Positions 310 to 9,031 of a DNA stretch of 64,000 nt are shown in pieces. Where the stretch lies: NCBI RefSeq assembly GCF_007725405.1, contig NZ_CP042163.1, forward strand, positions 868,001-932,000, read 5' to 3'. A model generated the notes under the pieces. That model saw nothing but the letters and a program-made list of their open reading frames with translations. It had not been told where the DNA came from and searched no databases. The DNA comes from Shouchella miscanthi. Lineage in GTDB: Bacteria > Bacillota > Bacilli > Bacillales > Bacillaceae_D. A program made the position numbers and the translations under genes. Each line of letters starts with the position of its first letter. The first letter of the stretch is position 1.

Positions 310-507
310 AAAGAGTAAGTATGTAGTACTATTCCCATTCTGTCATGATTTAAACCCCGAATTAAATAGGTCGTACATTTTCTCATCTTTTTTCATTAGT
401 AGCAGTACGAATGCTTATTTTGCAATCATTCTTTAAGATTCTTAAGGTTTTCTTTTCTCCTTCTTATGGTTTGGTAGGTAGACTTCTTTTAGAAGGAGTT
501 GATGGAA

Positions 508-1368
508 ATGATGAAAAAATGGGTAGCAGTTGGAATGATTCCTATTAGCTTATTTTTACTAGCCTATAGCCTTTTATTTTCTACAGTTGAAAAAACATTG
601 CTATTAGATGTAAATCAGAATAAATTATTAATTGACTCAGGCATTGATGAAGCTGTTCCTGTTGCAAGCATATCAAAGATGATGACAGAGTATCTCATAT
701 TGGAAGAGATCGAAAAGGGTACCGTTGATTGGAATGATCTTGTCCAAATAAGTGGTGAAGCAGCAGCGAAAGAAGGTGCGAACATTTCTCTATCAAAAGG
801 AGATAACGTCCCCGTTCATGATTTATACATGGCGATGCTACTTCCATCCGCTAATAATGCAACAGTTGCGTTAGCTGAACATTTAGCAGATAGTGAAAAA
901 GAGTTTGTGAAAAAGATGAACGAAAAAGCGAAAGAAATTGGGTTAACAAATTCCACGTTTGTTAACGCAACAGGACTGACAGAGTCAAATACAAAGAGCA
1001 ATCAAATGAGTGCGCGGGATATTGCTGTGTTGGCGCAGTTGTTAATTACTCAATTTCCTGAGGTTCTGCAAGATACAGCAAAGTCATCTCACACCCTTAC
1101 ATTTTCAGGTGAACGTGTTCATACAACCAATCATATGTTGACGACACCAGACCTTGCTTTTGATGGGTTGGATGGTTTTAAGACAGGCTATACCAATGAA
1201 GCGGGATATTGCTTTGTAGGGACGGCAAGTAGAGATGGACAGCGGTTTATTACAGTTGTATTAGGAACTGAAAACTATAATGCGCGTTTTGTAGAAACAC
1301 AGAAGCTCTTATCTCTTGCTTTTGATGAGCCGTATACACCTCCTTTAGAAGCATCTCTTGACAGATAA
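508..1368 (+). CDS. D-alanyl-D-alanine carboxypeptidase (peptidase S11, DacF/PBP5-like)
   Basis: This is a cell-wall enzyme that trims the terminal D-Ala from peptidoglycan stem peptides. All three S11 motifs are visible: SISK at residues 54-57 (nucleophile Ser54), SAN at 114-116 and KTG at 225-227. A hydrophobic N-terminal segment at about 7-25 suggests membrane anchoring or a signal sequence. With 286 residues it is the catalytic domain only, lacking the C-terminal beta domain of classical PBP5. I chose the ATG at 508 because AAGGAG at 493-498 is 9 nt away. An in-frame TTG at 499 and an ATG at 502 are too close to that site. A histidine kinase and a response regulator of VanS/VanR type follow on the same strand, so a role in envelope stress or glycopeptide response (VanY-like) is an inference. 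Confidence 0.88.
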   Translation: MMKKWVAVGMIPISLFLLAYSLLFSTVEKTLLLDVNQNKLLIDSGIDEAVPVASISKMMTEYLILEEIEKGTVDWNDLVQISGEAAAKEGANISLSKGDNVPVHDLYMAMLLPSANNATVALAEHLADSEKEFVKKMNEKAKEIGLTNSTFVNATGLTESNTKSNQMSARDIAVLAQLLITQFPEVLQDTAKSSHTLTFSGERVHTTNHMLTTPDLAFDGLDGFKTGYTNEAGYCFVGTASRDGQRFITVVLGTENYNARFVETQKLLSLAFDEPYTPPLEASLDR

Positions 1369-1509
1369 TGGCATGTGTAGCAAGCAGTATGGTACGAATC
1401 GCTACATGCTCTATAAAGTGAAAAACAATGCGTTCGTAATGGTGAGCGTGATTAAGGTTATAATGAAATATGCTGGTGTCTTGGACACAACGGATCTAAA
1501 AGGAGGAAA

Positions 1510-2634
1510 ATGGCGTTGACTAGTCGGTATGTGGCTTTAGTTTTTAAAATGGTGATGTTGTTATTTATAAGTGGTTTTCTTACAAGCGTAGCTATTGCAG
1601 GGCTTTACTTCACGTATCAAGTGTCAGATTTAAACTACTATATAAATGTATTTGATCGAATTGCAGCAGCTTTTAACGCAACACTTAATTTTTATAGTTA
1701 TGAATTATTCAATCTGATAAATGTATTATTCTTTGTCGGAATCGTCCTATCTATATGGTTCATTGGACACAGGTACATACACTACTTCGTGAAGATTGAA
1801 AAAGATCTTGGGCAGATGGCAGGTGGCGAGCTTTCGCAACGGATCGAGGTAAAAGAGAATCATGAACTAGGTCAATTAGCTAGACAAGTGAATCAATTAA
1901 TTGAAAGGCTAGAAAACACTGTGCATGAAGAAAGAATTGCTGAGCAATCGAAAACAGAATTAATTACAAATGTATCACATGACTTACGAACACCTCTTAC
2001 TTCTATTATGGGCTACCTCGATTTAATCGAGAGAGATCAATATAAAGATGAAGTAACCTTACGCTATTTTACAGACATCGCCTATGATAAAACGAAGCAA
2101 ATGAACTCAATGGTCAACGACTTATTTGAATACATCCGAACGAAAAACCCGAAGCTCATGTTAAATAAAGACTACATCGACCTGAAAGAAGTGATCAAGC
2201 AAATTGCTTCTCATTTTCATTTGCAAATGGAAGAAGCGAAATTAAGCTTTAGAATGGATTTGCCAGATCAGGAAGTGAAGCAATATGTGGATGGAGAAAA
2301 GCTTTCGCGCGTACTTGAAAACATTATCGGAAATGCAATCAAGTATGGAGCTGACGCACCGTTTATTGACATTACTCTTCATCAAGGCACGAAAGAAACG
2401 GAAATGGAAATTCGAAATTACGGGGAACCTATTGCTCAGTCTGAGATTCCGTTTATCTTTGAAAGATTCTACCGAGTGGATCAATCTCGTTCAAAAGACA
2501 CTGGGGGTTCTGGATTAGGATTAGCCATTGCAAAGAATATTGTCGAACTACACGAGGGTGAAATTCGTGTAACTAGTGATTTAGAAGGAACGGCATTTTC
2601 TATCACCTTACCTATTGTACATAAGGAAGCGTGA
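1510..2634 (+). CDS. Sensor histidine kinase, VanS-like
   Basis: This is a membrane sensor kinase that should autophosphorylate on His157 in NVSHDLRTPLTS and pass the phosphate to the regulator at 2776. Two membrane segments lie at about residues 11-35 and 70-90. They enclose a short extracytoplasmic loop of about 35 residues and are followed by a HAMP-like linker, a dimerisation/phosphoacceptor domain and a HATPase_c domain (N box with Asn275, G box GGSGLGLAIA near 332-341). AAAAGGAGGAA sits directly before the ATG. The kinase precedes the regulator, the reverse of the usual VanR-VanS order. The short sensor loop is typical of kinases that sense envelope damage. The actual signal is unknown. 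Confidence 0.88.
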   Translation: MALTSRYVALVFKMVMLLFISGFLTSVAIAGLYFTYQVSDLNYYINVFDRIAAAFNATLNFYSYELFNLINVLFFVGIVLSIWFIGHRYIHYFVKIEKDLGQMAGGELSQRIEVKENHELGQLARQVNQLIERLENTVHEERIAEQSKTELITNVSHDLRTPLTSIMGYLDLIERDQYKDEVTLRYFTDIAYDKTKQMNSMVNDLFEYIRTKNPKLMLNKDYIDLKEVIKQIASHFHLQMEEAKLSFRMDLPDQEVKQYVDGEKLSRVLENIIGNAIKYGADAPFIDITLHQGTKETEMEIRNYGEPIAQSEIPFIFERFYRVDQSRSKDTGGSGLGLAIAKNIVELHEGEIRVTSDLEGTAFSITLPIVHKEA

Positions 2635-2775
2635 AAATTCTCCCATAGACGAAGGAACATCTCCTATATGGAGAGGACAAACATGCATGCACCCTTACGA
2701 ACGACCTAGCCTGTCAACTCGTATGGAGTGCTTGTAGACGATATCCATCAACCCGCAAAAAGGATGTGAGCGAAT

Positions 2776-3465
2776 TTGTCTAAACAGATTTTAATTGTAG
2801 ACGACGACCAAGATATAGCAAATCTCATTAACTTTTCTTTGAAAAATGAAGGCTTCAACACGGTCATGGCTAGCAATGGTGTGGAAGCAATGAAACAACT
2901 GGAACAGCATCCTATTGATTTAATCGTCTTAGATGTAATGATGCATGAAATGAATGGGTTGGAATTTTGCCAAGCCGTTAGACGGAGTCATAGCCTACCT
3001 ATTCTGATGATTAGTGCAAAATCGGAAGACATGGATAAAATTACAGGAATTATGACTGGTGCCGATGATTATGTTAGTAAGCCTTTTAACATTCTTGAGC
3101 TCGTTGTTCGTGTGAAGGCGTTAGTACGAAGAGCGTACTACTATCACGGCGCTCCAAAAGAAGGTGGCATCCTTGAGTTAGGCGATTTAACCATTGATAA
3201 AAAGAAATATCAAGCTAGAGTGCATGGAAATGAACTGAAATTAACTTCTAAGGAATTTGATATACTATATCTCCTTGCTAGTCAAGCGGGCCAAGTGTTT
3301 GACTCAGAGACCATTTTTCAAAGCGTTTGGAAGGAAAAGTACTATGATTCAAATAACACTGTGATGGTGCATATAAGCAACTTGCGAGACAAGCTTGAAA
3401 AAGCGTTAGGGTATAAAGTCATTCAAACCGTCTGGGGAGTCGGCTACAAAATTGAATCTGTTTAA
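2776..3465 (+). CDS. OmpR/VanR-family response regulator
   Basis: The protein has a receiver domain with an acidic pocket near residues 9-11, phosphoacceptor Asp53 in LIVLDVMM and Lys in ISAKSED. A winged-helix trans_reg_C DNA-binding domain follows and ends in VWGVGYKIE. The start is a TTG at 2776 preceded by AGGATGTGA at 2761-2769, a one-mismatch Shine-Dalgarno; no ATG fits. The 141-nt gap from the kinase holds a small CTCC/GGAG hairpin but no clear terminator. It is presumably the partner of the upstream kinase. Likely targets are the carboxypeptidase gene and other envelope genes (inference). Confidence 0.9.
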   Translation: MSKQILIVDDDQDIANLINFSLKNEGFNTVMASNGVEAMKQLEQHPIDLIVLDVMMHEMNGLEFCQAVRRSHSLPILMISAKSEDMDKITGIMTGADDYVSKPFNILELVVRVKALVRRAYYYHGAPKEGGILELGDLTIDKKKYQARVHGNELKLTSKEFDILYLLASQAGQVFDSETIFQSVWKEKYYDSNNTVMVHISNLRDKLEKALGYKVIQTVWGVGYKIESV

Positions 3466-3488: not shown

Positions 3489-3518
3489 TTGACTTCCACA
3501 TAAGAAAAGATCTATAGT
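3489..3518 (+). promoter_or_regulatory. Sigma-A promoter of the attenuated MutS2-paralog transcript
   Basis: A TTGACT -35 at 3489-3494 and a TATAGT -10 at 3513-3518 are separated by 18 nt, predicting a start near 3525. Transcription would begin about 300 nt before the coding region and pass through the leader ORF, the nested hairpins and two terminators. Confidence 0.7.
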
Positions 3519-3560
3519 AGGTGTGTATTAACTATTGCACGTATAAAGGAGACAACTTTT

Positions 3561-3584
3561 ATGTATCTGGTGGTTCTTAACTAA
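3561..3584 (+). CDS. Leader peptide MYLVVLN
   Basis: This is a seven-codon ORF with a perfect AAAGGAG Shine-Dalgarno at 3545-3551 and a 9-nt spacing to ATG, ending in TAA. It lies between the promoter and the terminators, and codons 5-7 form one arm of a 10-bp helix. Short hydrophobic leader peptides of this kind precede erm, ABC-F and similar ribosome-protection genes, where drug-stalled ribosomes switch RNA folding (established for those families). Its role here is inferred from layout. Confidence 0.55.
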   Translation: MYLVVLN

Positions 3585-3702
3585 TCCATGAATTGGATAG
3601 CTTGAAATGCGATTTTTTAGCGTACTGGTGACGCTTATTTTGTCATGGCATTTCAAGGAGTTAAGAACACGTTTACTAGTAAGAGTTGTCCTACTTGAAG
3701 TC

Positions 3703-3727
3703 TACCTACAATAGGTAGGTACTTTTT
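3703..3727 (+). terminator. Attenuator terminator 1
   Basis: TACCTAC at 3703-3709 and GTAGGTA at 3715-3721 enclose a 5-nt loop and are followed by CTTTTT. It lies between the leader peptide and the MutS2-paralog gene, with no complete ordinary gene upstream that would need it. Confidence 0.7.
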
Positions 3728-3767
3728 AAAGAGGCCGCTGTGAACGAGTGTTCAGAGCGGTCTCTTT
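3728..3767 (+). terminator. Attenuator terminator 2
   Basis: An 18-bp stem with one mismatch and one G-U pair (3728-3745 with 3750-3767) has a GAGT loop and directly follows terminator 1. The U tract is short (CTCTTT), so it may be a weak terminator or a roadblock hairpin. Tandem hairpins before the gene strengthen the attenuation reading. Confidence 0.55.
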
Positions 3768-3827
3768 GTCGTCTCTGGATAATCGTTCGCACAGTTCCTT
3801 ATACAAGCAAAAAAGGAGGAAATGCAC

Positions 3828-5750
3828 ATGAAACAACAAACCTTAGAAGCGATAGGGTTTAATGATGTCCTTAAGGAGATGGCTGAGCATACGCGGATGA
3901 ATCGAGCACGTGAAACGATTCTTCAGATGAAGCCTCTACTGAATCAAAGTCAAATGGAGCACAGGATGACTGAAATAGAAGAGGCTATCCGTATTCTGAC
4001 CCGTAGCGGCAGTGTACCGATACACGTTGTAGATGATATTGCCCAAATGATTATGCAAGCAAAGAAAGGATTGTTTATTCGCGCGGATCAATTTACAAGG
4101 GTGATTTCTTTTTTAGAGCATTGCGGCAAGTTAAAGCGGTTTATGAATGATAAACAGGAGATTGCGCCATTGGTGAGTAGCTATGCGTTTTCGATTGATG
4201 ATCTTTCACAACTAGAGGAACAACTTACCTCAGCCATTCGTAATGGTCAAGTTGATGAGTATGCGTCAAAAGAATTAAGTTACCTTCGTCGTCAGAAGAA
4301 AGTGGCTTTAGAACGATTAAAAAATAAAGTGGAGCACCTTGTAAATGGAGGGAAATACAAAAGCTTTTTGCAAGATAAGATGGTCTCCACACGCCAAGGT
4401 CGATACGTACTATCAATAAAAAAAGAATACCGTAATAAAGTAAAGGGTACGGTCCTTGATACATCAGCTTCCGGCTCAACATTGTTTATGGAACCGTCTG
4501 AAGTGAGCGATATTCAAGAAGAGGTGAGTTTGTACACCTATGCAGAGGAAGCAGAAGTAGAACGAATTTTATTCGAACTAACAGAAGCGTTATTAGCACA
4601 AGAACAGACCATTTCTATTGCAATGGATGTCATGCATGAGTACGATGTGTTGTTTGCTAAAGCAAAATATTGTCGGGAAATAGAAGGAACAAAACCTTCT
4701 TTATCAGTCGATCGAACGATTAAGCTCATACGTGCTAGACACCCGGCCTTAGGTCGAAAAGCGGTTCCTTTGACGATAAGCTTTGGTGGAGCTGTTGATC
4801 GTGCGTTAGTCATTACCGGACCGAATACAGGTGGAAAAACCGTAACATTGAAAACCGTTGGATTAGTAACTGCAATGGCACAGGCAGGATTGCTGATTCC
4901 TGCTGAAAAGGGTAGTCAGATTGGTATCTTCCAAACCATTTTTGTTGATATTGGTGATGGGCAAAGTATGGAGGATAATTTAAGCACGTTTAGTTCAAGA
5001 ATGGTTTCCATTATAGAGATATTACGAGAAGCTAATGATCGATCACTCGTCTTGCTTGACGAACTTGGCTCTGGTACAGATCCAAATGAAGGAATGGGCT
5101 TAGCCATTACAATTTTAAACCAGTTATATAAAAAAGGTTCCACCTTATTTGCTACGACCCACTATAGCGAAATGAAGAGCTTTGCTGACGACACAGACGG
5201 CTTCATTAACGGCTCAATGGAATTTGATGTAGAAAGTTTACAACCAACATATCGGTTATTAATAGGTGAAAGTGGTAAAAGTCAGGCTTTTGAGATCGCA
5301 CTTAAATTAGGCTTACATCCGAGTATTGTTGATGAAGCGCATCAAATTTCATATGGACAAAAGAGTTCCTATCAAGACCGCTTTTCTGCTGAGGCGCTTC
5401 AAAGCGAAGCGTTTCGCAAGCAAGTTATTTTTAATCGTCACGCAAATAAACAAAAAAAAGTCCTCGCTTCTGACGTGAAAACATTCCAGCAAGGGGACAA
5501 TGTGACGATTCAAGCGACGAATGAAACCGCAATTGTTTATAAAGGCCCTGATGAAAGGGGGAACTATATCGTACAAGTTAAAGATGACAAGCGAACGATT
5601 AATCATAAGCGCTTGACATTGCATATTTCAGCGGAAGAGCTGTATCCAGAAGACTATGACTTTGATATTATCTTTAAAAGCAAAACCTATCGGAAAGTCA
5701 AAAATGATCAGAGCCGCAAGCATATGGACGGTATTTGGTTAGAGGAATAA
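3828..5750 (+). CDS. MutS2-family ATPase lacking the Smr domain
   Basis: This is a MutS-superfamily protein most like bacterial MutS2. It has an N-terminal helical core, Walker A GPNTGGKT at about 331-338, Walker B LVLLDELGSGTDP at about 408-418 and a KOW-like beta segment at about 540-590. It then ends after a short basic tail of about 50 residues. Full MutS2 is near 780 residues with a C-terminal Smr domain, which is absent here. MutS2 of Bacillus subtilis acts on collided ribosomes and can split them (established knowledge), so a ribosome-rescue or drug-tolerance role is more likely than mismatch repair. The start at ATG 3828 is 8 nt from AAGGAGG; the ATG at 3822 is too close. Expression is probably attenuated by the leader upstream. 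Confidence 0.85.
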   Translation: MKQQTLEAIGFNDVLKEMAEHTRMNRARETILQMKPLLNQSQMEHRMTEIEEAIRILTRSGSVPIHVVDDIAQMIMQAKKGLFIRADQFTRVISFLEHCGKLKRFMNDKQEIAPLVSSYAFSIDDLSQLEEQLTSAIRNGQVDEYASKELSYLRRQKKVALERLKNKVEHLVNGGKYKSFLQDKMVSTRQGRYVLSIKKEYRNKVKGTVLDTSASGSTLFMEPSEVSDIQEEVSLYTYAEEAEVERILFELTEALLAQEQTISIAMDVMHEYDVLFAKAKYCREIEGTKPSLSVDRTIKLIRARHPALGRKAVPLTISFGGAVDRALVITGPNTGGKTVTLKTVGLVTAMAQAGLLIPAEKGSQIGIFQTIFVDIGDGQSMEDNLSTFSSRMVSIIEILREANDRSLVLLDELGSGTDPNEGMGLAITILNQLYKKGSTLFATTHYSEMKSFADDTDGFINGSMEFDVESLQPTYRLLIGESGKSQAFEIALKLGLHPSIVDEAHQISYGQKSSYQDRFSAEALQSEAFRKQVIFNRHANKQKKVLASDVKTFQQGDNVTIQATNETAIVYKGPDERGNYIVQVKDDKRTINHKRLTLHISAEELYPEDYDFDIIFKSKTYRKVKNDQSRKHMDGIWLEE

Positions 5751-7471: not shown

Positions 7472-7603
7472 GTAAAAGTTTGAAATGATTTAGTGGAATG
7501 ATTTATAGCCTGTATGTTCGATACGATCGTTTAATAGATGTGAAAACAGCTGTTGTTTTGGTACACTGGAGGAAGAGAATACTGTAATAAACTACATACA
7601 CCT

Positions 7604-7691
7604 ACCACTAGGGGTGCGTCATGCTGAGAGAGACGATGAAGTCTTAACCCTTATGAACCTGATCTAGATGATGCTAGCGGAGGGAAGTGGT
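7604..7691 (+). promoter_or_regulatory. TPP riboswitch (THI element)
   Basis: The conserved THI-box elements are present in order: the P1 arm ACCACT, GGGGTGC, CTGAGA, then ACCCTTATGAACCTGATC, GATGCTAGCGGAGGGAAG and the closing AGTGG(T). The terminator at 7715-7745 is the expression platform, so thiamine pyrophosphate should switch off the downstream gene by premature termination. Confidence 0.93.
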
Positions 7692-7714
7692 TGAGCAATA
7701 GGTATGGTCTGTTC

Positions 7715-7765: not shown

Positions 7766-9031
7766 ATGAAGGAACTATTGGAGCAAGTCGACTTACGCGA
7801 GGATGAGCTTATTGAACTAGTGAAGGCGTTAATTTCATTTCAAACACCAGCACCACCAGCACGAAATACAGTAGCCATTCAAACGTATATTGCCAATTAT
7901 TTAAAAGAAATGGGGATGTTTATTGACCAGTGGGATGTGTATGAAGGCGATCCTAATGTTGTCGGAACGTTAAAAGGAACAGACAGGGAGGCCTTTCATA
8001 GCTTGATCTTAAATGGACATGTAGATGTGGCTGCTGTTGAAGAAGATGAAGAATGGGAGATGCCACCTTTTGCTGCAAAAGTAAAGGATCGGTCGATTTA
8101 TGGTCGTGGGGCTGCAGATATGAAAGGCGGACTTGCTGCCTGTTTGTTTGCGTTAAAGCTAGCTTCTGATCATGGCATTGAATTAAAAGGGGACGTCATT
8201 TTACAGTCGGTTATCGGAGAAGAAGTAGGGGAAGCAGGGACAAAGCAATGCTGTGAACGGGGGTATAAAGCAGATTATGCCATCGTAGCGGATACGAGTC
8301 ACTGTTCGATTCAAGGTCAGGGTGGTGTCATAACTGGATGGATTACGATTAAAAGCCCGACTACACATCACGACGGGACAAGACGCCAGCTTATTCACGC
8401 CGGTGGTGGTGTAAATGGGGCGAGCGCCATTGAGAAAATGGCAAAACTCATTACTGCTTTACAAGAGTTAGAGCGACATTGGGCAGTCACAAAGTCTTAT
8501 CCTGGTTTTCCGTCAGGGACAAACACCATTAATCCTGCGGTGATTGAAGGAGGAAGGCACCCCGCATTTATCGCGGATGAATGCCGGTTATGGATGACGG
8601 TTCATTTTTATCCGAATGAGTCGATTGAAGAGGTAACAAAAGAAATTGAAACACATCTTCTAGCGGTAGCAAAAGGAGATGTTTGGTTACGTGATCATTT
8701 ACCACAATTTGAGTGGGGTGGAGAGTCAATGATTGTTGATCGAGGAGAAGTGTTTCCAGCGTTCTCTGTTGATGAAAAGCATCCAGGGTTTGCAGTCATT
8801 TCAGAAGCGCATACAGCGGTCTTTAAAGAGCAACCGAAGGTCGATATGTCACCAACTGTGACAGATGGTGGGTGGCTGGCGGCTTATGGTATACCAACGA
8901 TTCTATACGGCCCGGGGAAATTAGCACACGCCCATGCAGTAAATGAAAAAATCGACATAGACGAACTGATTATGTACACAAAATCCCTTTTATCCTTTAT
9001 GGTACGTTGGTGCAACACACAAAAAAAGTAG
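7766..9031 (+). CDS. ylmB: N-formyl-4-amino-5-aminomethyl-2-methylpyrimidine deformylase (YlmB)
   Basis: This is an M20/ArgE-DapE-type zinc amidohydrolase. In Bacillus the YlmB subgroup deformylates formylaminopyrimidine, recycling the pyrimidine half of degraded thiamine. Metal-site residues are visible: His84-x-Asp86 in LNGHVDV, Asp118 in RGAADMKGG and Glu152-Glu153 in IGEEVGE. The 421-residue length is normal. TAAGGAGG precedes the ATG. The upstream TPP riboswitch is what distinguishes it from generic acetylornithine deacetylases and supports the thiamine-salvage assignment. Confidence 0.88.
   Translation: MKELLEQVDLREDELIELVKALISFQTPAPPARNTVAIQTYIANYLKEMGMFIDQWDVYEGDPNVVGTLKGTDREAFHSLILNGHVDVAAVEEDEEWEMPPFAAKVKDRSIYGRGAADMKGGLAACLFALKLASDHGIELKGDVILQSVIGEEVGEAGTKQCCERGYKADYAIVADTSHCSIQGQGGVITGWITIKSPTTHHDGTRRQLIHAGGGVNGASAIEKMAKLITALQELERHWAVTKSYPGFPSGTNTINPAVIEGGRHPAFIADECRLWMTVHFYPNESIEEVTKEIETHLLAVAKGDVWLRDHLPQFEWGGESMIVDRGEVFPAFSVDEKHPGFAVISEAHTAVFKEQPKVDMSPTVTDGGWLAAYGIPTILYGPGKLAHAHAVNEKIDIDELIMYTKSLLSFMVRWCNTQKK

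Follow-up and report, generated by a model that had tools for sequence, protein, structure and literature searches.

A candidate ribosome-sensing transcription attenuator preceding an SMR-less MutS2 paralog in Shouchella miscanthi and its relatives

The MutS2-like Gene and its Surroundings

The locus considered here lies in a 64,000-nucleotide stretch of the 4.25 Mb genome of Shouchella miscanthi (contig NZ_CP042163.1, contig coordinates 868001-932000), which is referred to below as the window and whose own numbering is used throughout. Its central gene, at 3828-5750 on the plus strand, encodes a MutS2-like ATPase of 640 amino acids without an SMR domain, as judged by profile search and alignment, and the nearest named record, from Shouchella oshimensis, shares 93% protein identity with its product. 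A Shine-Dalgarno (SD) sequence is read at 3813-3819, and 3828 is the best start codon; the in-frame ATG at 3822 lies too near this SD.

All features of the leader region lie on the same strand as the gene. The original prediction placed a sigma-A promoter and a seven-codon ORF with its own SD ahead of the gene, and both are there. The promoter (3489-3518; TTGACT-18-TATAGT) matches 10 of 12 consensus positions. Such sites by themselves occur at chance level in the region (8 found against 8.2 expected), yet a promoter scoring at least 10/12 stands just 5′ of 75 of 117 related leaders, compared with 6.8% of shuffles made in two-base blocks. The SD, AAGGAG, is at 3546-3551, and the ORF at 3561-3584 (ATG TAT CTG GTG GTT CTT AAC TAA) encodes MYLVVLN, terminates with UAA, and ends in the DNA word GTTCTTAACTAA. 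A search of the leader in the window and 13 relatives found no Rfam family at gathering score.

The genes upstream (499-3465) encode an S11 D-alanyl-D-alanine carboxypeptidase and a two-component pair that is nearest to the VanS/VanR profiles, below their cut-offs. Downstream, a TPP riboswitch (7600-7702; 68.4 bits) lies directly 5′ of a 421-amino-acid ORF (7766-9031) that reads like an M20-type deacylase; a combination of this kind is known from thiamine salvage in bacilli. In Pontibacillus chungwhensis (L012), a purine riboswitch is found beside the locus on the minus strand (1875-1976).

A Shortened MutS2 with a New C-terminus

The window protein scores 583 bits against the MutS2 profile TIGR01069 (cut-off 400), with the match confined to profile columns 2-519 of 790, the first two thirds. 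The Walker A motif GPNTGGKT, the Walker B residues D411-E412, and the motif GTDP are invariant across 37 aligned sequences. Domain search found no Smr domain in the paralog, while the canonical MutS2 of the same genome (L002) contains Smr and MSSS. The paralog has a KOW-like five-stranded barrel (residues about 551-603; 5478-5636), after which a conserved C-terminal tail with the motif YPEDYDFD (5637-5747) replaces the linker and SMR. Two further matches were found in the genome, the full-length MutS2 (L002) and a distant protein with 30% identity that is probably MutS1. The end of a polX-like gene overlaps the L002 ORF; Listeria annotation shows this gene order as well. Because the genome also contains a full-length MutS2, and because the profile is only partly covered, the window gene is regarded as a second, shortened copy; in the protein tree, canonical MutS2 is represented by two rows only.

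The paralog has a patchy distribution, being present in 126 of the 299 genomes searched within the order. In one genome the gene carries an internal TGA (G102:C1:2866491-2866754) and in L056 its frame is broken, so that the gene can decay, or these two assemblies contain errors. A mobile origin was considered and rejected. Plasmid records include at least two full-length paralogs with the leader (L123, L124), and a match in a Listeria plasmid collection (H6) was set aside since it reads as canonical MutS2. The two "phage" records (L120, L121) are unannotated wastewater contigs with host-looking DNA that carry the gene and leader, and they are probably bacterial. The strict leader pattern described below had 0 matches in viral contigs.

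Secondary Structure of the Leader

The region 3525-3770 has a predicted minimum free energy of −91.5 kcal/mol, compared with −57.2 ± 4.7 kcal/mol for shuffled sequences (z = −7.2), a value reached by 0 of 200 shuffles. Within this fold, the ORF from its SD through its stop codon pairs with a single 3′ arm (3659-3690). The SD/start region (3551-3561) forms helix P1 with 3680-3690 (11 nt, 91% paired), and the Val-Leu-Asn-stop codons (3573-3582) form helix P2 with 3659-3668 (10 nt, 100% paired). Between leader and arm, a long hairpin, P3 (3601-3657), is closed by 3601-3613 and 3645-3657 (13 nt, 92% paired), and behind its inner hairpin lies TTATTT (3635-3640), which matches the TTNTTT NusG pause motif as given in PMC9226507. 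The long-range helices that had been predicted, including the one built from leader-peptide codons, are thus borne out as inverted repeats at the claimed places.

Two tandem terminators had likewise been proposed, and both hairpins are present. T1 (3697-3725) is weak (−9.1 kcal/mol), has a U run, and was listed by a terminator consensus scan of the window. T2 (3728-3767) has a strong stem (−27.3 kcal/mol), but in this species the sequence behind it, GTCGTCTC, makes a poor U tract, and the scan did not list it. Across 72 loci, that of the window included, 70 have at least one hairpin-plus-U candidate between arm and gene and 47 have at least two; a good U tract follows the strong last hairpin in 56 of 64 loci. 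In 48 of the 72 loci a TTNTTT motif lies 20-33 nt 5′ of the arm, where single-base shuffles predict 4.3, but a scan found a stable short hairpin immediately 5′ of it in only 33 of the 72.

Conservation of the Leader ORF

Confirmed stretches from named genomes numbered 106, and the best 80 of them were compared; 71 of these 80 contain an SD-led ORF, mostly of seven codons, that ends in VLN-UAA and starts 256-759 nt before the gene. The other nine do not have a VLN leader, and three of them (L065, L071, and L080) are without a convincing leader of any kind. A DNA pattern for VLN-type leaders matched 75 places in 73 of the 299 genomes of the order, compared with 8 hits for the reversed control. 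By eye, 72 of the 75 places lie just 5′ of a MutS2-like gene on the same strand; of the remaining three, that in G187 is found at such a locus in the opposite orientation, and those in G161 and G185 lie in other surroundings. As far as the pattern tells, the leader element therefore belongs to the MutS2-like gene, and all 36 of the pattern loci that were read, including that of the window, adjoin it.

The pattern does not adjoin the paralog in 54 genomes, and of 40 such loci that were read, 39 have a leader (36 in the first reading), the exception being L216. Leaders that it missed include MSVVVLN-like peptides with weaker SD sequences and those of a second clade (MSGVVSK, GTG-started SAVGSK, MSGVGIN, MSVAGIN); GTG-started SVVGI and SVAGI leaders occur on contigs labeled Enterococcus and Listeria phage. 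Across the phylum, the strict pattern was found in only 6 of 398 genomes because it requires one exact sequence. A profile of the C-terminal tail matched 33 of the 398, two of them weakly (G313 and G317, about 1e-6); the G313 match, in a 799-amino-acid frame, is probably canonical MutS2.

A peptide list drawn up post hoc picked leaders in 120 of 137 nonredundant upstream regions, including the doubtful picks L228 and L241; the unbiased count is the 87 of 137 described below. Start codons among the 120 are ATG in 97, GTG in 21, and TTG in 2, and 114 have seven codons. The motif RLR was found in 0 of the 120 picked leader peptides and in a different SD-led ORF in 2 of the 137 upstream regions (L035, L072).

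Covariation of Leader and Arm

Removal of near-duplicates reduced 195 upstream regions to these 137. With no peptide filter, 87 of the 137 contain an SD-led ORF of 5-8 codons whose pairing with a segment 40-170 nt downstream gives a stem of ≥9 bp, compared with 141 of 2740 (5%) two-base-block shuffles. For P1, covariation between the SD/start region and the arm was evaluated at 45 loci (72 before near-duplicates were dropped) and was equaled in 0 of 10000 permutations, compared with 9975 and 3904 of 10000 for control segments. Among 40 leaders without GTTCTTAACTAA, each ORF is a better pairing partner for the region downstream in its own locus than for those of other loci (0/5000), in a set preselected by peptide list and energy, which somewhat favors pairing.

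Individual species show how the helix is maintained. Relative to L006, the helix of L005 (GTTCTTAAT/ATTAAGAAC) has AAC changed to AAT with the arm G changed to A. The helix of L235 (GTTCTGAAC/GTTCAGAAC) has a CTG codon with a matching change in the arm. Because these changes are both synonymous and compensated, peptide and pairing are kept together. Leader and arm words are also matched in L058 (GTTCATAA/TTATGAAC) and differ in concert between L195 (GTAGGTATC/GATACCTAC) and L201 (GCAGGTAT/ATACCTGC). Loss of the leader ORF and helices in relatives would have spoken against the original prediction, and these comparisons show both to be conserved. As a covarying helix the ORF-containing element is present; its function would be that of an anti-antiterminator.

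Suggested Direction of the Switch

The original prediction left the direction of the RNA switch open by eye. The arm has a second complementary partner in the last terminator, whose loop and 3′ strand it matches through words that differ by species (GAACAATG, GAACAAAT, CAATGAAT, CAAGCAT, GAACAC). Over 40 loci (64 before near-duplicates were dropped), this arm:T2 covariation was equaled in 0 of 5000 permutations, while a P3 control segment gave p = 0.87.

Folding of growing transcripts, with and without a mask representing a ribosome on the leader, was scored for 60 of 72 loci, the other 12 having no strong last hairpin, being too distant, or having sequence missing. Arm:leader pairing had a median of 24 positions when the leader was free versus 0 when it was masked. 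Conversely, arm:T2 pairing of at least 8 positions occurred in 49 of the 60 loci with the leader masked versus 6 with it free, and masking delayed the appearance of T2 in 37 loci and advanced it in 1. Single-base-shuffled arms reached the masked arm:T2 effect in 57 of 192 cases versus 37 of 48 for real arms. In the window, 13-18 positions of arm:T2 pairing appear once 20-28 nt of T2 have been made.

Since the arm covaries with the last terminator, a direction is suggested in which the leader pairs with the arm when free, while a ribosome on the leader releases the arm to pair with T2 and delay the terminator. The chief weakness of this reading lies in equilibrium folding, which keeps the terminators: when 3525-3770 was folded with the leader masked, as had been proposed, both hairpins still formed, and full-length T2 re-formed in 60 of 60 scored loci even under the mask. 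The arm:T2 pairing covaries and forms transiently, yet T2 wins at full length, so any antitermination would have to be kinetic.

Alternative pairings near T1, also part of the original prediction, fared less well. The complementary words CATAGC/GCTATG are clear by eye in several species, but as a general antiterminator the arm:T1 pairing was rejected, with permutation p values of 0.04 for the 5′ half and 0.13 for the whole hairpin (n = 24); such pairing is possible. In three second-clade loci (L184, L191, and L194), another arm-complementary stretch follows the terminator near the SD of the gene (in L194, AGGTATCTTCAT and AGGTGTCTTCAT, complementary to the arm ATGAAGATACCT), which perhaps acts on translation of the read-through mRNA.

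Comparison with Known Attenuators

The leader of Bacillus subtilis vmlR, as presented in PMC9226507, contains a uORF within an anti-antiterminator, a TTNTTT pause hairpin, and a choice between antiterminator and terminator, with ribosome stalling as its input. The window leader would follow the same plan; vmlR differs in its three-codon uORF (MIN), its single terminator, and its ABC-F gene product. In Listeria, the hflXr/rli80 attenuator has a short ORF before a paralog of a ribosome-splitting factor that is kept beside the housekeeping copy (PMC6310831). A comparable ORF, uORFC-6-1, precedes hflX (PMC8632094). The window locus resembles the Listeria attenuator in both respects; hflXr differs in its 14-amino-acid ORF with an RLR motif and in its product, the GTPase HflX, which is unrelated to MutS2. 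The window leader is outside the RLR-type and three-codon uORF groups.

The msrD leader peptide (MYLIFM-UAA, six codons) is stalled at termination by macrolides and precedes an ABC-F gene (PMC10314930). It shares its first three residues, MYL, and its UAA stop with the window leader. The shared start does not establish that the leader senses macrolides, since among the listed leaders only MYLVVLN of the window's genus begins with MYL, and most others begin with MS or ML. MsrD supplied in trans is reported to suppress its own induction, and by analogy similar feedback is possible at the window locus. Asn precedes the stop codon in vmlR (MIN) and lsaA (MAGN), as it does in the window leader (VLN), perhaps by chance.

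For the protein itself, the closest model is B. subtilis MutS2, whose ATPase is essential for disome splitting (PMC10897456). The window protein resembles it in lever, clamp, and ATPase core, and possibly in KOW, and differs from it in having no SMR domain or long linker, a new tail, and an inducible-looking leader of its own.

Proposed Mechanism and Alternative Explanations

These features are likely to constitute a ribosome-sensing transcription attenuator before an SMR-less MutS2 paralog, and comparison with relatives supports the original prediction of such a leader-peptide attenuator well. Translation of the leader ORF would begin at its own SD immediately upon transcription. When the ribosome completes the ORF and dissociates, the RNA of the ORF would pair with the arm ~75 nt downstream, and the tandem terminators would stop RNA polymerase. 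A ribosome that stays on the leader, most likely drug-stalled at the Val-Leu-Asn-stop end, would leave the arm free to capture the loop and 3′ strand of T2 as they emerge, delaying this last hairpin so that polymerase may enter the gene. Its product, a MutS2 core with a KOW-like barrel and no SMR domain, would then act on stalled ribosomes. The leader, its helices, their covariation, the arm:T2 covariation, and the domain make-up are established at the level of sequence. We infer from them leader translation, stalling, and readthrough, with a drug trigger and ribosome splitting by the paralog postulated by analogy to HflXr, VmlR, MsrD, and B. subtilis MutS2.

The same switch might respond to a trigger other than a drug, with ribosomes that terminate or recycle slowly, or an overall slow-down of translation, inducing a physiological rescue factor. 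A single strict drug-arrest motif is disfavored by the variety of peptide ends (VLN, GSK, VSK, GIN, VHN), 99 of the 120 leaders stop at UAA, and VmlR is also induced by ribosome assembly defects. We nevertheless consider this unlikely, because the nearest systems of the same plan answer to drugs and the patchy presence of the paralog is more readily reconciled with an accessory gene for resistance or tolerance than with a housekeeping gene.

Two other explanations seem very improbable. Leaders of leu and ilv operons are amino-acid attenuators, and the commonest peptides here, MLGVVLN and MSVVVLN, are rich in Val and Leu, so that a shortage of tRNA for Val, Leu, or Asn could stall the leader ribosome; however, many leaders (MSVNVLN, MSVSVLN, MSAVGSK) carry Ser, Asn, Thr, Ala, or Gly at the Val/Leu positions, and the controlled gene is not a biosynthetic enzyme. 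An RNA element acting without translation, as a protein-binding leader or riboswitch with an incidental ORF, would fit the conserved helix and the near-invariance of GTTCTTAACTAA as DNA (69 of 73 matches, to an expression that already restricts the letters), but the SD, the ATG/GTG start, and the length are kept while codons 2-4 vary, compensations are synonymous, and no Rfam family matches at the leader in the window or 13 relatives.

Implications

The candidate attenuator is a real and widely conserved element, its structure and conservation being solidly grounded in comparative data, and it is undescribed in the open-access literature searched, where no account of an SMR-less MutS2 paralog or its leader appeared among the matches listed. 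By the same search, a MutS2-like gene is new in an attenuator-controlled role. The leader further provides a clear example of dual selection on an ORF, for peptide and for RNA pairing.

A stuck ribosome on the leader probably switches the protein on in many related bacteria. We tentatively extend this to SMR-less MutS2 proteins in general, which may form a distinct Bacillota family of inducible ribosome splitters, widespread and with their own MSxVVxN-type leaders that would respond to stalled ribosomes in a self-limiting rescue and drug-tolerance circuit, the switch-off coming about because the protein would clear the ribosome stuck on its leader. ABC-F proteins and HflXr are known means of inducible rescue of drug-stalled ribosomes, and the paralog, if this is true, would add a third, unrelated ATPase family. 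A common and unnoticed gene of the order would then join the intrinsic response to translation inhibitors, and the question of why cells hold a collision-bound MutS2 plus an SMR-less second copy would become directly testable.
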